From positions 192,073-256,072 of the forward strand of contig NZ_JAVHJP010000004.1 of the NCBI RefSeq assembly GCF_031020795.1: a stretch of DNA of 64,000 nt. The letters run 5' to 3'. The notes beneath the pieces were generated by a model that saw only the letters and a program-made list of their open reading frames with translations, did not search any database and had not been told where the DNA came from. This DNA comes from Hydrogenophaga pseudoflava. GTDB lineage: Bacteria > Pseudomonadota > Gammaproteobacteria > Burkholderiales > Burkholderiaceae_C. This document shows positions 27,508-33,671 of the stretch, piece by piece. The stretch's first letter is position 1. Each line of letters opens with the position of its first letter. Both the position numbers and the translations under genes were made by a program.

Positions 27508-27603
27508 AGGTGTGCTGGTGAGTGAAAAAACATCAGATGGCCGATTATGGATTCGCCCGGCCCGGGCTTGTTCGGGAACATTTCAAACTGCTACATTGCG
27601 GCC

Positions 27604-28854
27604 ATGAGCGAACTCGCCGGCAAACACATTGTTCTGGGTCTTTCGGGCGGAATCGCCTGCTACAAGGCGGCCGAATTCTGCCGAGCCCTGATCAAGGCCG
27701 GCGCCACCGTCCAGGTGGTCATGACCGACGCGGCCACGCAGTTCATCACGCCGGTCACGATGCAGGCCCTGTCAGGCCGCACGGTATTCTCGTCGCAGTG
27801 GGACGACCGCCACGCGGCGGGTGTGGACAACAACATGCCCCACATCAACCTGAGCCGGGAAGCCGACGCGATCGTGGTGGCCCCCGCCAGCGCCGACTTC
27901 ATGGCCAAGCTGCTGCACGGCCGTGCCGACGACCTGCTCAGCCTGATGTGCCTGGCGCGCCCGATCGATAAGGTGCCGCTCATCCTGGCGCCGGCCATGA
28001 ACCGCGAGATGTGGGCCCACCCGGCCACGCAGCGCAACGTGGCCCAACTCAAGGCAGATGGCGCCACGGTGCTGGACGTGGGCGTGGGCGATCAGGCCTG
28101 TGGCGAGATTGGCGACGGGCGCATGCTCGAACCGGACGAACTGCTGTACGAGCTCGTCCGCTTCTTCACGCCCAAGCTGCTGGCCGGCCAGCAGGTGCTG
28201 GTCAGCGCCGGCCCGACCTTCGAGGCGATCGACCCGGTGCGTGGCCTGACCAACCTCTCCAGCGGCAAGATGGGCTTTGCCATCGCGAGGGCGGCGCACG
28301 AAGCGGGTGCGCACGTGACGCTGGTGGCCGGACCGGTGAGCCTGCCGACCCCCCGCGGCGTGGGGCGCATCAACGTCAAGTCCGCGCTGAACATGCAGAA
28401 GACGCTCAATGTGCTGAGCCAGAACGCCACCGTGTTCGTCTCGGCAGCGGCCGTGGCCGATTGGCGTCCGGTCGAGATGGCGGTGCAGAAGATCAAGAAA
28501 GACGGTTCCGGACAGGTGCCGACCCTGGGATTCGTCGAGAACCCCGACATCCTCGCCGGCATCGCCCAGACCACACGGGCACAGAGCCGGGCGCTGTACT
28601 GCGTGGGGTTTGCCGCCGAAAGCGAGGATCTGCTGGCCCATGCGCAGGCCAAGCGTGTTCGCAAGGGCGTGCCGCTGCTGGTGGGCAACATCGGCCCGGA
28701 CACCTTCGGCCAGGACGACAACGCCCTGCTGCTGGTCGACGAGCAGGGCAGTGCCGAGCTGCCCCGGGCGTCCAAGCTGCAGCTGGCGCGCCAGCTGGTG
28801 GCAGAGATCGCACGGCGTCTGCCCAACCCCTCGCCACTGCCTTCGACCACCTGA
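27604..28854 (+). CDS. coaBC: Bifunctional phosphopantothenoylcysteine decarboxylase/synthase
   Basis: 416 aa from the ATG at 27604. The CoaC half (about 1-190) shows VLGLSGGIACYKAAEF, SSQWDDRHAAGVDNNMPHINLS (catalytic His), PAMNREMW and GDGRMLEP. The CoaB half (about 195-416) shows VLVSAGPTFEAIDPVRGLTNLSSGKMG, FVSAAAVADWRP and KIKKDGSG. It supplies 4'-phosphopantetheine for coenzyme A. A longer upstream in-frame extension is ignored because homology begins here. Confidence 0.96.
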   Translation: MSELAGKHIVLGLSGGIACYKAAEFCRALIKAGATVQVVMTDAATQFITPVTMQALSGRTVFSSQWDDRHAAGVDNNMPHINLSREADAIVVAPASADFMAKLLHGRADDLLSLMCLARPIDKVPLILAPAMNREMWAHPATQRNVAQLKADGATVLDVGVGDQACGEIGDGRMLEPDELLYELVRFFTPKLLAGQQVLVSAGPTFEAIDPVRGLTNLSSGKMGFAIARAAHEAGAHVTLVAGPVSLPTPRGVGRINVKSALNMQKTLNVLSQNATVFVSAAAVADWRPVEMAVQKIKKDGSGQVPTLGFVENPDILAGIAQTTRAQSRALYCVGFAAESEDLLAHAQAKRVRKGVPLLVGNIGPDTFGQDDNALLLVDEQGSAELPRASKLQLARQLVAEIARRLPNPSPLPSTT

Positions 28855-28861
28855 CTCTGTG

Positions 28862-28879
28862 GCACCGGTTGCCCGGTGC
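28862..28879 (+). terminator. Short hairpin after coaBC
   Basis: GCACCGG-TTGC-CCGGTGC forms a 7-bp stem with a 4-base loop eight bases after the coaBC stop. There is no T-run, so termination may be partial. Listed as a candidate only. Confidence 0.4.
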
Positions 28880-28892
28880 GGGCAAGCTCGTT

Positions 28893-28924
28893 ATCATCGA
28901 ATAAGCAATTGCTTATTCGATGAT
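28893..28924. promoter_or_regulatory. Perfect 32-bp palindrome, candidate operator
   Basis: The half-site ATCATCGAATAAGCAA is followed directly by its exact reverse complement. It is AT-rich in a GC-rich genome. It ends 15 bp before the metallo-hydrolase ATG at 28940, immediately before the AGGAG ribosome-binding site, and is followed by TTTTTA. Size and base composition resemble operators of dimeric winged-helix repressors such as ArsR/SmtB types, though that match is inferred. As RNA it would fold into a long hairpin next to the ribosome-binding site and could also act as a terminator for coaBC. Confidence 0.7.
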
Positions 28925-28939
28925 TTTTAGGAGACGCCC

Positions 28940-30013
28940 ATGCCATTCCCCCTTCCGACACGACGGCCCTCGCGGCCAGGTGTTCCTTCCGACACTCTCA
29001 ACGAGTCCCGGCGCCACTGGGTGCGGACCATTGCCGGCCTGGGCGCCGCCGGGGCGGGGCTGGCCCTGGTGCCCGAGGTCCGGCTGTTCGCCCAGCAGGT
29101 CCAGGAGTTCATCGAAGGCCTGCCGGTGCCCGACGTCAAACCCGAGCAACTGTCTCCCCACGTGTGGATGGTCTATGCAAAGGAAGGCTTTCCGACGCAG
29201 GAGAACCAGGGCCTGATGGCGAGTGTCGTCTTCGTGGTGACACGCAAGGGCGTGGTGGTACTGGACAGCGGTGCTTCGTTGCAGATCGGCCAGATGGCGA
29301 TCCGCATGATCAGGACCGTCACCCCCAAGCCGGTGATCGCGGTCTTCAACAGCCACTACCACGGCGACCACTGGCTGGGCAACCACGCCTTCGCCGACGC
29401 CTATGGCAAGGACCTGCCCATCCATGCGCTGGCCTACACGCGCGAGCAGATCGCCGGTCAGGAAGGCAGCCTCTGGCGCAGCCTCATGGAGCGCTGGACC
29501 AATCAGGCGACGCTGGGCACCAAGGTGGTGGCGCCCAACCAGACCGTGGAGCACGGACAGGTGTTCGACTACGGCGACGTGCAGATCCGGTTGCACCACT
29601 ACGGCCGGGCGCACACGCCGTCGGACCTGTGTTTCGAAGTCGTTCAGGACAAGCTGACCTACGTCGGCGACATCGCGATGGAGAACCGCATCGCCAACAT
29701 CGACGACGGTTCCTACCCCGGCACCTTCAAGTACTACGACGCGCTCAAGAAGGCCGCGGGCGACCAGCTCTGGCTGCCGGGCCACGGCCGGGGCAGCAAG
29801 GGCCTGCTGGACACCTACGGCACCTTCATGAAGGGCATCTGGGAGCCCTGCGTGCAGGCGGTCAAGGAGGGCATTCCGCTGGACGGCGCCAAGGCGCTGG
29901 TGCTGAAGGACCCGCGGGTCGCCAGCCGTGCCAAGACCATGGCCGGCTTCGAGAGCAACATCGGCAAGTACACCAGCCTGGCGTATCTCGAAGCCGAGAA
30001 AGAAGCGTTCTAG
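28940..30013 (+). CDS. MBL-fold metallo-hydrolase with Tat-like signal
   Basis: 357 aa. An N-terminal segment SRRHWVRTIAGLGAAGAGLAL looks like a twin-arginine signal (Arg24-Arg25). The metallo-beta-lactamase fold follows, with NSHYHGDHWLGNHAFAD (HxHxDH), HHYGRAHTPSD and a later LPGHGRG, so a complete di-metal site is present. The closest relatives by pattern are SoxH/quinoprotein-associated and related periplasmic hydrolases. It is alone, downstream of the 32-bp palindrome. Substrate unknown. Confidence 0.82.
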   Translation: MPFPLPTRRPSRPGVPSDTLNESRRHWVRTIAGLGAAGAGLALVPEVRLFAQQVQEFIEGLPVPDVKPEQLSPHVWMVYAKEGFPTQENQGLMASVVFVVTRKGVVVLDSGASLQIGQMAIRMIRTVTPKPVIAVFNSHYHGDHWLGNHAFADAYGKDLPIHALAYTREQIAGQEGSLWRSLMERWTNQATLGTKVVAPNQTVEHGQVFDYGDVQIRLHHYGRAHTPSDLCFEVVQDKLTYVGDIAMENRIANIDDGSYPGTFKYYDALKKAAGDQLWLPGHGRGSKGLLDTYGTFMKGIWEPCVQAVKEGIPLDGAKALVLKDPRVASRAKTMAGFESNIGKYTSLAYLEAEKEAF

Positions 30014-30099: not shown

Positions 30100-31218
30100 T
30101 CAGTTCTTCCACCAGGGGAGCAAGCGCTTCATGGCTGCGACTTCGCCCGGGTGGTCGGGCTGATAACCGGGCAGGGTCTGCAGCCGTTTCTGCCAGTCCG
30201 CGCCGCGCAGCAACCTCAGCAGGTTCTGCACCGGCGCTTGCTCCAGCGCCGATTTCAGGCACACCAGCAGGTAGCGCTCGTCGGTCAACGGCACAAAACC
30301 GAGTCCCTGGCTGCGCGCCGTGTACTCGGTGCCCAGACCCACGTCGGCGTCGCCGCTGGCCACAGCCTGGGCCACCGCCGCGTGGGAGCTTTCCTCCCGG
30401 TCGAAGCCTTTGAGGTCTGCGCTCGTCAGGCCGTCCTGCATCAACAGCTCCTCCAGCAACAGCCGGGTCCCGGTGCCGATGGCGCGGTTGACAAAGCGGG
30501 CGCTCTGTCGCGACACGTCCTTCAGGTCCCGCAGGCGCAGCGGGTTGCCGGGCGCCACCATCAACCCCTGCGAGCGGCGCGCAAAACCGACGATCTTGTG
30601 CGTGCCGGGCTTGAGCAGCGGGCGGTAGGTGCGGGCGCTGCGGCTGTCGGCGTCGGCAAACGGCTGGGTATGGAAGCCGGCCAGCAGACAGCGGCCTTCG
30701 TTGAGCGCGCGGATCGCGTCGACGCTGCCGGTGAAGCGGATGTCCAGGTGCACGCCGGGTTCGCTGCCCCCTTGCAAAGACGAAGCCAGCTCCTGCAATT
30801 CGGCCAGCGCGTGGTCGTGGCTGGCGTACAGCGTGAGCACCTCGCTCGGGCGCTGCGCGTCGTCGAAGGCCATGGCAAAGGCCCGCTCCAGCTCGGCGCG
30901 CAGGCTCTCCATTTGCGGTCCCAGCCGCGCCTGGGCCAGCCGCTCGGCCATCAGCAAGCGCTGGCCGAAGGGCGAGAGCAGGGCGGACTGACCGCGCTCC
31001 CAGACCAGCAGCTCGCGCCCGAGCTGCTGCTCCCACTCCTTGAGCTGGCCCCAGACATGGCGGTACGAGAGGCCCAGCTGCCGGGCTGCGGCGGAGATCG
31101 ATCCCTGCTCGTGCACGGCGTGCAGCACGTCCATCATCGGGTTGCGCAGCAGCGCCGATCCTTGCCCACGCTCCGGGCGTTCGGCCATCAGCGAGTAGGA
31201 CATCGCAATCCGTTTCAT
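30100..31218 (-). CDS. ModE-like transcriptional regulator with PBP-like sensor domain
   Basis: About 372 aa; ATG at 31203 is an alternative start. The N-terminal winged HTH is of LysR/ModE type (GSISAAARQLGLSYRHVWGQLKEWEQQLG). The C-terminal half is a PBP-like domain of the kind found in molybdate/tungstate-responsive regulators (LNEGRCLLAGFHTQPF, NRAIGTGTRLLLEELL, ASGDADVGLGTEYTA). It reads divergently from tupB with about 120 bp between, so it probably controls tungstate uptake. It has no Mop domain, unlike the modE gene 5 kb away; ligand binding is inferred. Confidence 0.82.
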   Translation of the reverse strand: MKRIAMSYSLMAERPERGQGSALLRNPMMDVLHAVHEQGSISAAARQLGLSYRHVWGQLKEWEQQLGRELLVWERGQSALLSPFGQRLLMAERLAQARLGPQMESLRAELERAFAMAFDDAQRPSEVLTLYASHDHALAELQELASSLQGGSEPGVHLDIRFTGSVDAIRALNEGRCLLAGFHTQPFADADSRSARTYRPLLKPGTHKIVGFARRSQGLMVAPGNPLRLRDLKDVSRQSARFVNRAIGTGTRLLLEELLMQDGLTSADLKGFDREESSHAAVAQAVASGDADVGLGTEYTARSQGLGFVPLTDERYLLVCLKSALEQAPVQNLLRLLRGADWQKRLQTLPGYQPDHPGEVAAMKRLLPWWKN

Positions 31219-31336
31219 GGGCGTCGAGTGTGCCTCAGACCTCGCATATGCAAACGAGTGCCTATGTTGGATTGTTCATACCGAGTTGCCACGTACTCCC
31301 AAACCCGTAGCACGCGCTTATGCTGCGGCGCGACGT

Positions 31337-32065
31337 ATGAACACCTTTTCCGACAGCGCGGTCACCGCGTTTGAACTCATTCTTTCCGGCGATGCCGGCC
31401 TCTGGGCCATCGTCGCCCGCTCGCTCGCCGTCAGCGCCACGGCCTGCCTGCTGGCCTGCGGCCTGGGCCTGCTGCTGGGCGCCTGGCTGGCGGTGGCGCG
31501 GTTTCCGGGCCGGCCGGTGGTGCTGACCTTGCTGAACACTTTCCTGGCCATCCCCTCGGTGGTGGTGGGGCTGGTGATCTACCTGCTGCTCTCGCGCTCC
31601 GGTCCGCTGGGTTTTCTCGGCTGGCTGTTCAGCTTCCAGGCCATGGTGCTGGCGCAGGCGATCCTGGTGCTGCCGCTGGTCACGGCGCTCACGCGCCAGG
31701 TGGTCGAGGACGCCGACCGCAGCCACGGCGAGCAGCTGTCCTCGCTGGGCGCGGGTCTGGGATTGCGCAGCCTGCTGATGGCCTGGGACGAGCGCTATGC
31801 GCTGCTGACGGTGCTGATCACCGCGTTCGGTCGCGCGGTGTCCGAGGTCGGCGCAGTCATGATCGTCGGCGGCAACATCGACGGTTTCACACGCGTCATG
31901 ACCACCGCCATTGCGCTGGAGACCAGCAAGGGCGACCTGCCGCTGGCGCTCGGCCTGGGTATCGTGCTGCTGGCGGTGGTGCTGCTGCTCAATGCCCTGG
32001 TGGCGCTGCTGCGGCGCTGGCGCGAGCACCTGGACGGTGGCGACCTGCGGATGGCCACGACATGA
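31337..32065 (+). CDS. tupB: Tungstate ABC transporter permease TupB
   Basis: 242 aa from the ATG at 31337. Five or six membrane helices and the EAA-type loop (DRSHGEQLSSLGAGLGLRSLL). The FGRAVSEVGAVMIVGGNIDGFTRVMTTAIALETSKGDL stretch is diagnostic of Tup/Wtp/Mod-like permeases. It forms the inner-membrane channel of the TupABC system. The stop overlaps the tupC start as ATGA. The divergent regulator probably binds the 31219-31336 interval, which contains GCATATGC. Confidence 0.92.
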   Translation: MNTFSDSAVTAFELILSGDAGLWAIVARSLAVSATACLLACGLGLLLGAWLAVARFPGRPVVLTLLNTFLAIPSVVVGLVIYLLLSRSGPLGFLGWLFSFQAMVLAQAILVLPLVTALTRQVVEDADRSHGEQLSSLGAGLGLRSLLMAWDERYALLTVLITAFGRAVSEVGAVMIVGGNIDGFTRVMTTAIALETSKGDLPLALGLGIVLLAVVLLLNALVALLRRWREHLDGGDLRMATT

Positions 32066-32844
32066 GGGTCGATCTTCCCGCCAGCGGGGCCGTGCCCGAC
32101 CGCGAGGCGGTTCAAGCCACAGTTCTGGACCTGCGCTCCGTGCACGTGAGCCTGGGCCCGGCCGCGCAGGTCGAGGCGCTGCGCGACATCACGCTGGCGA
32201 TCCGGTCGGGCGAGCGTGTGGCCCTGGTCGGACCCAATGGCTGCGGCAAGAGCACGCTGCTGCGCGCGCTGCACGGCCTGCTGCCGATCGCGCAGGGCCG
32301 ACGGGAGGTGCCGCAGGCCTCTCGCATCGCCATGCTGTTCCAGCGCCCGCACATGCTGCGCATGACGGTGCAGCGCAACCTGCAGCTGGGTCTGTGGCTC
32401 AGCGGTGTGGCCTGGGCGCAGACAAAAGCCCGTGCGCGGCAGGCGCTGGAGCGCGTGCAGCTGGCGGCGCTGTCGGAGCGCAACGGTCGTGCGCTCTCCG
32501 GCGGTCAGCAGCAGCGTGTGGCGCTGGCGCGGGCCTGGGCGCTGCAGCCCGATGTGTGGCTGCTGGACGAGCCCACAGCCAGCCTGGACCCGCACGCCAA
32601 GCGCGACGTTGAGGCGTTGATCGCCGATTTCTGCAACGAAACACCCGCGCCGGGTCGCCTGCCGCCCACGCTGGTGTTCGCCAGTCACAACCTCGGCCAG
32701 GTCAAGCGCCTGGCCAGCCGCGTGGTCTACCTCGAACAGGGTCGTGTGCGGGCCGACCTGCCGGTGCACGACTTTTTCAACCAGGACCTGCTGGAGCGGC
32801 TGTCTCCTCAGGCCAGCGCATTTGTCAAAGGAGAAACCACATGA
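32062..32844 (+). CDS. tupC: Tungstate ABC transporter ATPase TupC
   Basis: 260 aa. Walker A GPNGCGKST, Q-loop LFQRPHML, signature ALSGGQQQRVALARA, Walker B VWLLDEPTASLD and H-loop FASHN. A short N-terminal extension (about 20 residues) precedes the ABC fold. It is coupled on both sides by ATGA overlaps, giving a tight tupBCA transcript. It energises tungstate import. Confidence 0.92.
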   Translation: MRVDLPASGAVPDREAVQATVLDLRSVHVSLGPAAQVEALRDITLAIRSGERVALVGPNGCGKSTLLRALHGLLPIAQGRREVPQASRIAMLFQRPHMLRMTVQRNLQLGLWLSGVAWAQTKARARQALERVQLAALSERNGRALSGGQQQRVALARAWALQPDVWLLDEPTASLDPHAKRDVEALIADFCNETPAPGRLPPTLVFASHNLGQVKRLASRVVYLEQGRVRADLPVHDFFNQDLLERLSPQASAFVKGETT

Positions 32845-33671
32845 AAAAGCAAATGAATCACCCCTGCCGCGCCCTCGTTCGCGCTGCCTCGTTCGTGGCG
32901 GCGATGCTGGTCGGCTCCGCCGCCTTCGCGCAGAGCAGCATCGTCGTCGCCTCCACCACGTCCACCGAGCAGTCGGGCCTGTTCGGCCACATCCTGCCGG
33001 CCTTCAGGCAGGCCAGCGGCGTCGACGTGAAGGTGGTGGCGCTGGGCACCGGTCAGGCCATTGACATGGCGCGCCGCGGTGACGCCGACGTGCTGTTCGT
33101 GCACGACAAGATCGCCGAAGAGAAGTTCGTGGCCGATGGCTTTTCGGCCAAACGCCTGGAGGTCATGTACAACGACTTCGTGCTGATCGGCCCCAAGGCC
33201 GACCCGGCCGGCACGAAGGGCAACGACATCGTGGCGGCGCTCAAGAAGATCGCCACCGCCAACGCCCCCTTCGTCTCGCGCGGCGACAAGAGCGGCACCC
33301 ACGCGGCCGAACTGCGCTTCTGGAAGATGACGGACACCGATGCCAACAAGGGCAGCGGCTACAAGGAATGCGGCTGCGGCATGGGCCCGGCACTGAACAT
33401 CGGCGCGAGCAGCGGCGCCTACGTGCTGGCCGACCGCGGCACCTGGCTCAACTTCAAGAACCGCGCCGACCTGGCGGTGCTGGTGGAGGGCGACAGGCGC
33501 CTGTTCAACCAGTACGGCGTGATGCTGGTGAGCGCCGCCAAGCACCCGCAGGTCAAGACGGCCGAGGGCCAGAAGTTCGTGGACTGGGTGACCGGTGCCG
33601 CCGGCCAGAAAGCGATTGCCGACTACAAGATCGGTGGCGAGCAGCTGTTCTTCCCGAACGCGAGCAAATAA
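32841..33671 (+). CDS. tupA: Tungstate-binding periplasmic protein TupA
   Basis: 276 aa with a Sec signal cut near AFAQS. The mature protein begins IVVASTTSTEQSGLFGHILPAF, the anion-binding TTST motif of TupA/WtpA-type proteins, and continues with GDADVLFVHDK and VSRGDKSGTHAAELRFW. An unusual KECGCGMGPAL segment with two Cys lies near the middle. Tup systems prefer tungstate over molybdate. Downstream is a dispersed repeat and convergent modC. Confidence 0.92.
   Translation: MKKQMNHPCRALVRAASFVAAMLVGSAAFAQSSIVVASTTSTEQSGLFGHILPAFRQASGVDVKVVALGTGQAIDMARRGDADVLFVHDKIAEEKFVADGFSAKRLEVMYNDFVLIGPKADPAGTKGNDIVAALKKIATANAPFVSRGDKSGTHAAELRFWKMTDTDANKGSGYKECGCGMGPALNIGASSGAYVLADRGTWLNFKNRADLAVLVEGDRRLFNQYGVMLVSAAKHPQVKTAEGQKFVDWVTGAAGQKAIADYKIGGEQLFFPNASK

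Follow-up and report, generated by a model that had tools for sequence, protein, structure and literature searches.

A perfect 32-bp palindrome at the promoter of a SoxH-related metallohydrolase gene in Hydrogenophaga pseudoflava, a probable repressor operator

A palindrome between coaBC and a metallohydrolase gene

The window analysed here, a 64-kb stretch of Hydrogenophaga pseudoflava DNA, contains a perfect palindrome of 32 bp, which lies in the 85 bp separating coaBC from a gene for a hydrolase of the metallo-beta-lactamase fold. Its 16 uninterrupted pairs have no loop, the centre falls at 28908/28909, and the two halves read ATCATCGAATAAGCAA and TTGCTTATTCGATGAT. Four base pairs separate its right end from the Shine-Dalgarno sequence, and the ATG of the hydrolase follows at 28940. 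The features of the locus are as follows.

27547-28854, plus strand: coaBC, the upstream neighbour (TIGR00521, above cut-off)
28869-28874, plus strand: TTGCCC, -35-like, with the TTG conserved in orthologous promoters
28892-28897, plus strand: TATCAT, -10-like, reaching into the palindrome from the left
28893-28924, no strand: palindrome and proposed operator, with the recognition core AATAAGCAATTGCTTATT at 28900-28917
28904, plus strand: predicted transcription start within the palindrome, placed by its spacing 7 nt past the -10
28929-28934, plus strand: Shine-Dalgarno AGGAGA, read from the sequence
28940-30013, plus strand: SoxH-related zinc hydrolase of the metallo-beta-lactamase fold, 357 aa, with a twin-arginine-like leader (Pfam Lactamase_B, 5e-21)
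30100-31218, minus strand: ModE-type regulator, TupR-like (HTH_1 + PBP_like), the next gene after the hydrolase

By chance, a perfect 32-bp palindrome would be expected about 64000/4^16 = 1.5e-5 times in 64 kb. When up to three mismatches were allowed, the half-site gave two matches in the window (0.06 expected), both of which were the palindrome itself. The original prediction had described a perfect 32-bp palindrome beside the ribosome-binding site of a metallo-hydrolase, which was borne out with exact coordinates and with the dyad kept in orthologous promoters. It had also proposed a genome-wide search for the half-site and had named a dispersed repeat, unrelated to the gene, as the finding that would speak against a regulatory site. 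The exact half-site occurred at a single location in the 4.98-Mb genome, the palindrome, and the next best match had two mismatches; a dispersed repeat was thus ruled out, the palindrome being single copy and tied to the hydrolase gene.

The hydrolase and its sulfur link

The hydrolase resembles the SoxH and quinoprotein-relay zinc metallohydrolases (TIGR04558 and TIGR04559) in its metallo-beta-lactamase fold, its twin-arginine-like leader and the linkage of its Limnohabitans orthologue to a sox operon. It differs from them in scoring far under the curated cut-offs of both SoxH_rel models (129 against 300 and 126 against 280, respectively). In Limnohabitans, the orthologue is the last gene of an apparent soxCD-YZ-A-X-B operon, which is adjoined by an ArsR-type gene; the sox gene names were assigned from the sequences, with SoxB recognized by its resemblance to the SoxB of the window genome. 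The product is a predicted exported, SoxH-related hydrolase that is putatively linked to sulfur oxidation. The sox cluster of the window genome is found elsewhere (L178), apart from the hydrolase gene, and no anti-phage defence model matched the hydrolase. A further sulfur link was observed in a Burkholderiaceae MAG (L107:4405-5826), where a SoxH-like gene is divergent from an apparent flavocytochrome-type sulfide dehydrogenase flavoprotein gene, named from its sequence.

A conserved promoter and a conserved core

The comparison covered promoters of the orthologous gene in Hydrogenophaga and neighbouring genera. TATSAT was present 2 to 6 bp ahead of the dyad in 15 of 18 nonredundant Hydrogenophaga-type sites, compared with about 1% expected from shuffled flanks, and 14 of these 15 promoters carried TTG at a distance of 17 to 18 bp from TATSAT, where shuffling would give 4.6%. 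As read from the sequence, these conserved elements (TTG-17/18-TATSAT) are a sigma-70-like promoter, represented in the window by TTGCCC-17-TATCAT. Because the putative -10 occupies 28892-28897, transcription would be expected to start near 28904, inside the palindrome.

Across Hydrogenophaga, the dyad AATAA-N8-TTATT was kept at the same place in the orthologous promoters. The ATAA/TTAT of its core was invariant in 26 of 26 distinct orthologous sites, a count that has to be read with the way these sites were selected, each matching at least nine of the ten core positions. Searching 60 genomes of the genus with AATAAGCNNNNGCTTATT at no more than one mismatch placed 12 of 12, among the matches listed, directly at the hydrolase gene. 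Many other Comamonadaceae have lost the full dyad but keep the octamer WTGCTTAT or its complement at other promoter distances; for sequence of this kind, 0.26 occurrences of the octamer would be expected in 64 kb. The retention of sequence while position shifts fits a DNA-binding protein, not a hairpin or a terminator, and the half-site at other promoter positions in distant relatives points to DNA recognition. Rearranged sites were also seen: in the L022/L075 and L026/L084 promoters, one half-site had been replaced inside a hairpin of greater length (CAACCAATGATCGATTGGTTG), or the site held two alternative inverted repeats that overlap each other.

The palindrome as a probable operator

The best reading of the palindrome appears to be a repressor operator over -10/+1. 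As such an operator should, the symmetric site overlaps the promoter and has a core whose sequence is conserved across orthologues. We consider it likely that the SoxH-like metallohydrolase gene is served by a dedicated promoter with the palindrome as its operator, to which a homodimeric winged-helix repressor with a sulfur inducer would bind, a stand-alone ArsR being the likeliest protein. In the mechanism that we infer, RNA polymerase would use TTGCCC-17-TATCAT and start near 28904; the repressor, bound to the symmetric core from just past the -10 to about +14, would block initiation, and the inducer would free it. The signal would most likely be reduced or sulfane sulfur, because of the sox linkage of the gene. 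Control of the sox type is suggested for the hydrolase gene despite its lying far from the sox cluster.

The arrangement is like the operators of the SqrR/BigR/SoxR systems in having an AT-rich dyad, with 8 bp between the half-sites, that lies over a sigma-70 promoter close to or at the transcription start, and like these systems in its link to sulfur-oxidation genes and in the presence of a multi-cysteine ArsR in the genome. The published dyad of Rhodobacter capsulatus SqrR, ATTC-N8-GAAT (PMC9774250), has the same spacing; its half-sites differ, being ATTC/GAAT rather than AATAA/TTATT. The site had been predicted to bind a dimeric repressor of the ArsR/SmtB or a similar type. The operator part of that proposal was strengthened by the conserved sigma-70-like promoter with its -10 abutting the dyad, the invariant core and the SqrR-like spacing, whereas the case for ArsR identity is circumstantial. 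One observation stands against the operator reading as it is given here: the outer arms change in sequence yet go on pairing, which is unexplained by a sequence-reading repressor alone.

Covariation of the outer arms

In the outer arms, 53 of 90 pairs were complementary compared with 31.1 in shuffles, although the kinship of the sequences inflates such counts. The pairing was bound to the exact register, falling to 20 to 36 when the right side was slid by 1 to 4 bases, and complementarity persisted between species that differ in arm sequence. Between the closest relatives (L014/L015), one change, C-G to A-T, was matched by compensation in the opposite arm; inside the palindrome, Hydrogenophaga flava differs from the window by one compensated pair of this type. 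Since the left outer arm is upstream of the predicted start, this covariation is probably a DNA-level effect, either hairpin-templated mutation (quasipalindrome correction), which is a known process (PMC7202029), or extended protein contact.

The chance falls only a little short of even that a real 18-bp operator core is accompanied by functionless arms, the perfect 32-bp length being a by-product of hairpin-templated mutation; this explanation is compatible with the operator. The excess of pairing, its restriction to the exact register, the compensated change in L014/L015 and the existence of a known mutational mechanism are all in its favour, but selection for extended protein contact or for pairing would look the same, and just one clean compensated pair was found among close relatives. 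It seems improbable, by comparison, that the symmetry itself is selected, with arms that evolve freely but must stay complementary and with the gene controlled in part by a hairpin or cruciform formed in the DNA around the -10 and start, or by a regulator responsive to symmetry or structure. The covarying arms are the sole surprising part of this putative operator, and they form a natural collection in which hairpin-templated mutation could be told apart from selection acting on a bacterial promoter. The switch itself, a probable repressor operator that is conserved and overlies the promoter of a sulfur-linked hydrolase gene, is fairly ordinary and of a known kind. Two arsR promoters of Tepidimonas (L237 and L238) carry differing inverted repeats right after the -10 (ATGATGCAG/CTGCATCAT and AGCGGACG/CGTCCGCT) that are reminiscent of the covarying arms; these repeats, for example GCGGACG/CGTCCGC in L238, may represent the same phenomenon.

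An unlikely alternative, a hairpin in RNA

The same complementarity could instead act in a coaBC read-through transcript, as an RNA hairpin that stops transcription of coaBC, serves as an insulator or tunes how accessible the ribosome-binding site is. The plus strand holding the whole palindrome does fold strongly (-43.3 kcal/mol, z -5), arm complementarity is kept across species, and among the arm mismatches A-C was scarcer than expected whereas G-T was not, an asymmetry that is at best an equivocal sign of RNA pairing. An mRNA hairpin, a trap for the ribosome-binding site or a coaBC terminator is nevertheless unlikely, because transcription is predicted to begin within the palindrome, and by fold computation the transcript from 28904 has no stable hairpin. 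No terminator was called at the site, and neither a T-run nor a constant distance to the ribosome-binding site was conserved in the orthologous promoters, the sequence past the palindrome varying, as in L015 (TTTAGAGG) and L016 (GACCGAGG). In L103, which has a gene other than coaBC upstream, a version of the site also occurs, and the core is kept as sequence, beyond mere pairing. An intrinsic coaBC terminator was rejected on these grounds, and a hairpin masking the ribosome-binding site, the other half of the alternative offered by the original prediction, is disfavoured by the predicted start.

A stand-alone ArsR as candidate repressor

The window genome has five ArsR-type matches. One is a stand-alone, two-cysteine ArsR/SmtB protein of 124 aa encoded at G000:C19, about 197.6-197.9 kb (L179:5575-5949, minus strand), whose gene carries TATCATGCATGCTTATATTGACA shortly before its start. 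Among Hydrogenophaga arsR promoters, ATGCTTATAT followed a TATSAT-like -10 in 29 of 30, the remaining one having ATGCCTATAT. A match to the protein was present in 57 of 66 genomes, two of which match only its paralogue, and identity was 77-98% in the other genomes holding it. Cys40, Cys96 and Cys100 were kept in orthologues where read. By the BigR model (62.7 bits against a cut-off of 155) the protein is not a member of that family, nor is it one by alignment, in which its Cys40 falls three residues away from the cysteine of BigR. In other species, a sox-linked ArsR paralogue (SoxR) has a related operator, TATGATTGATTGCCTATATA.

The stand-alone ArsR is the best candidate because it is a conserved protein with a half-site-like operator and has a sox-linked paralogue with a related operator. 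On this circumstantial evidence we propose it only tentatively as the most likely repressor at the palindrome, an assignment with appreciably less than an even chance of being correct. Its own operator shares a half-site but not the full dyad, genomes that lack the hydrolase have the gene too, and the arsR and hydrolase promoters of Tepidimonas share the half-site inconsistently. When the whole genome was searched for the arsR-promoter element, arsR itself gave the sole exact match, and thus no wider regulon emerged, and the genes adjacent in distant relatives included no consistent regulator partner. For the little-studied sulfur-linked hydrolase of Hydrogenophaga, these results provide a precise putative operator and a named candidate regulator.

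SoxR as the sole binder was rejected: a search of the window genome did not find soxR, though the palindrome is perfect there. A SoxR-type operator (TATATAGGCAATCAATCATATAG) stays before soxC at L178:5110-5150 (G000:C20), from which soxR, present at this place in sister species, is missing.

The adjacent ModE-like regulator

The original prediction had stated that no regulator gene was adjacent, which was incorrect, as the ModE-like TupR gene is convergent with and next to the hydrolase gene. Were the palindrome the operator of TupR, the hydrolase would follow the supply of tungstate or molybdate. Besides the adjacency, a Tepidimonas locus (L083:4500-6319) lends this some support, since the SoxH-like gene there precedes tupB by about 20 bp in the same direction, suggesting its co-transcription with the tungstate transporter. 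However, the tupR-tupB intergenic regions of Hydrogenophaga have in common GTACGT...CGGTATGAA and GCATAGG, without AATAA-N8-TTATT or WTGCTTAT. TupR is a weaker candidate because its own intergenic region shares this different motif across the genus, which is unrelated to the palindrome, and the protein is probably not the binder; we regard regulation of the hydrolase by TupR as a doubtful prospect. The cluster to which the regulator belongs (30100-33671 in the window) is a tungstate-type tupBCA cluster, in which the ModE-like regulator has a periplasmic-binding-protein-like domain.
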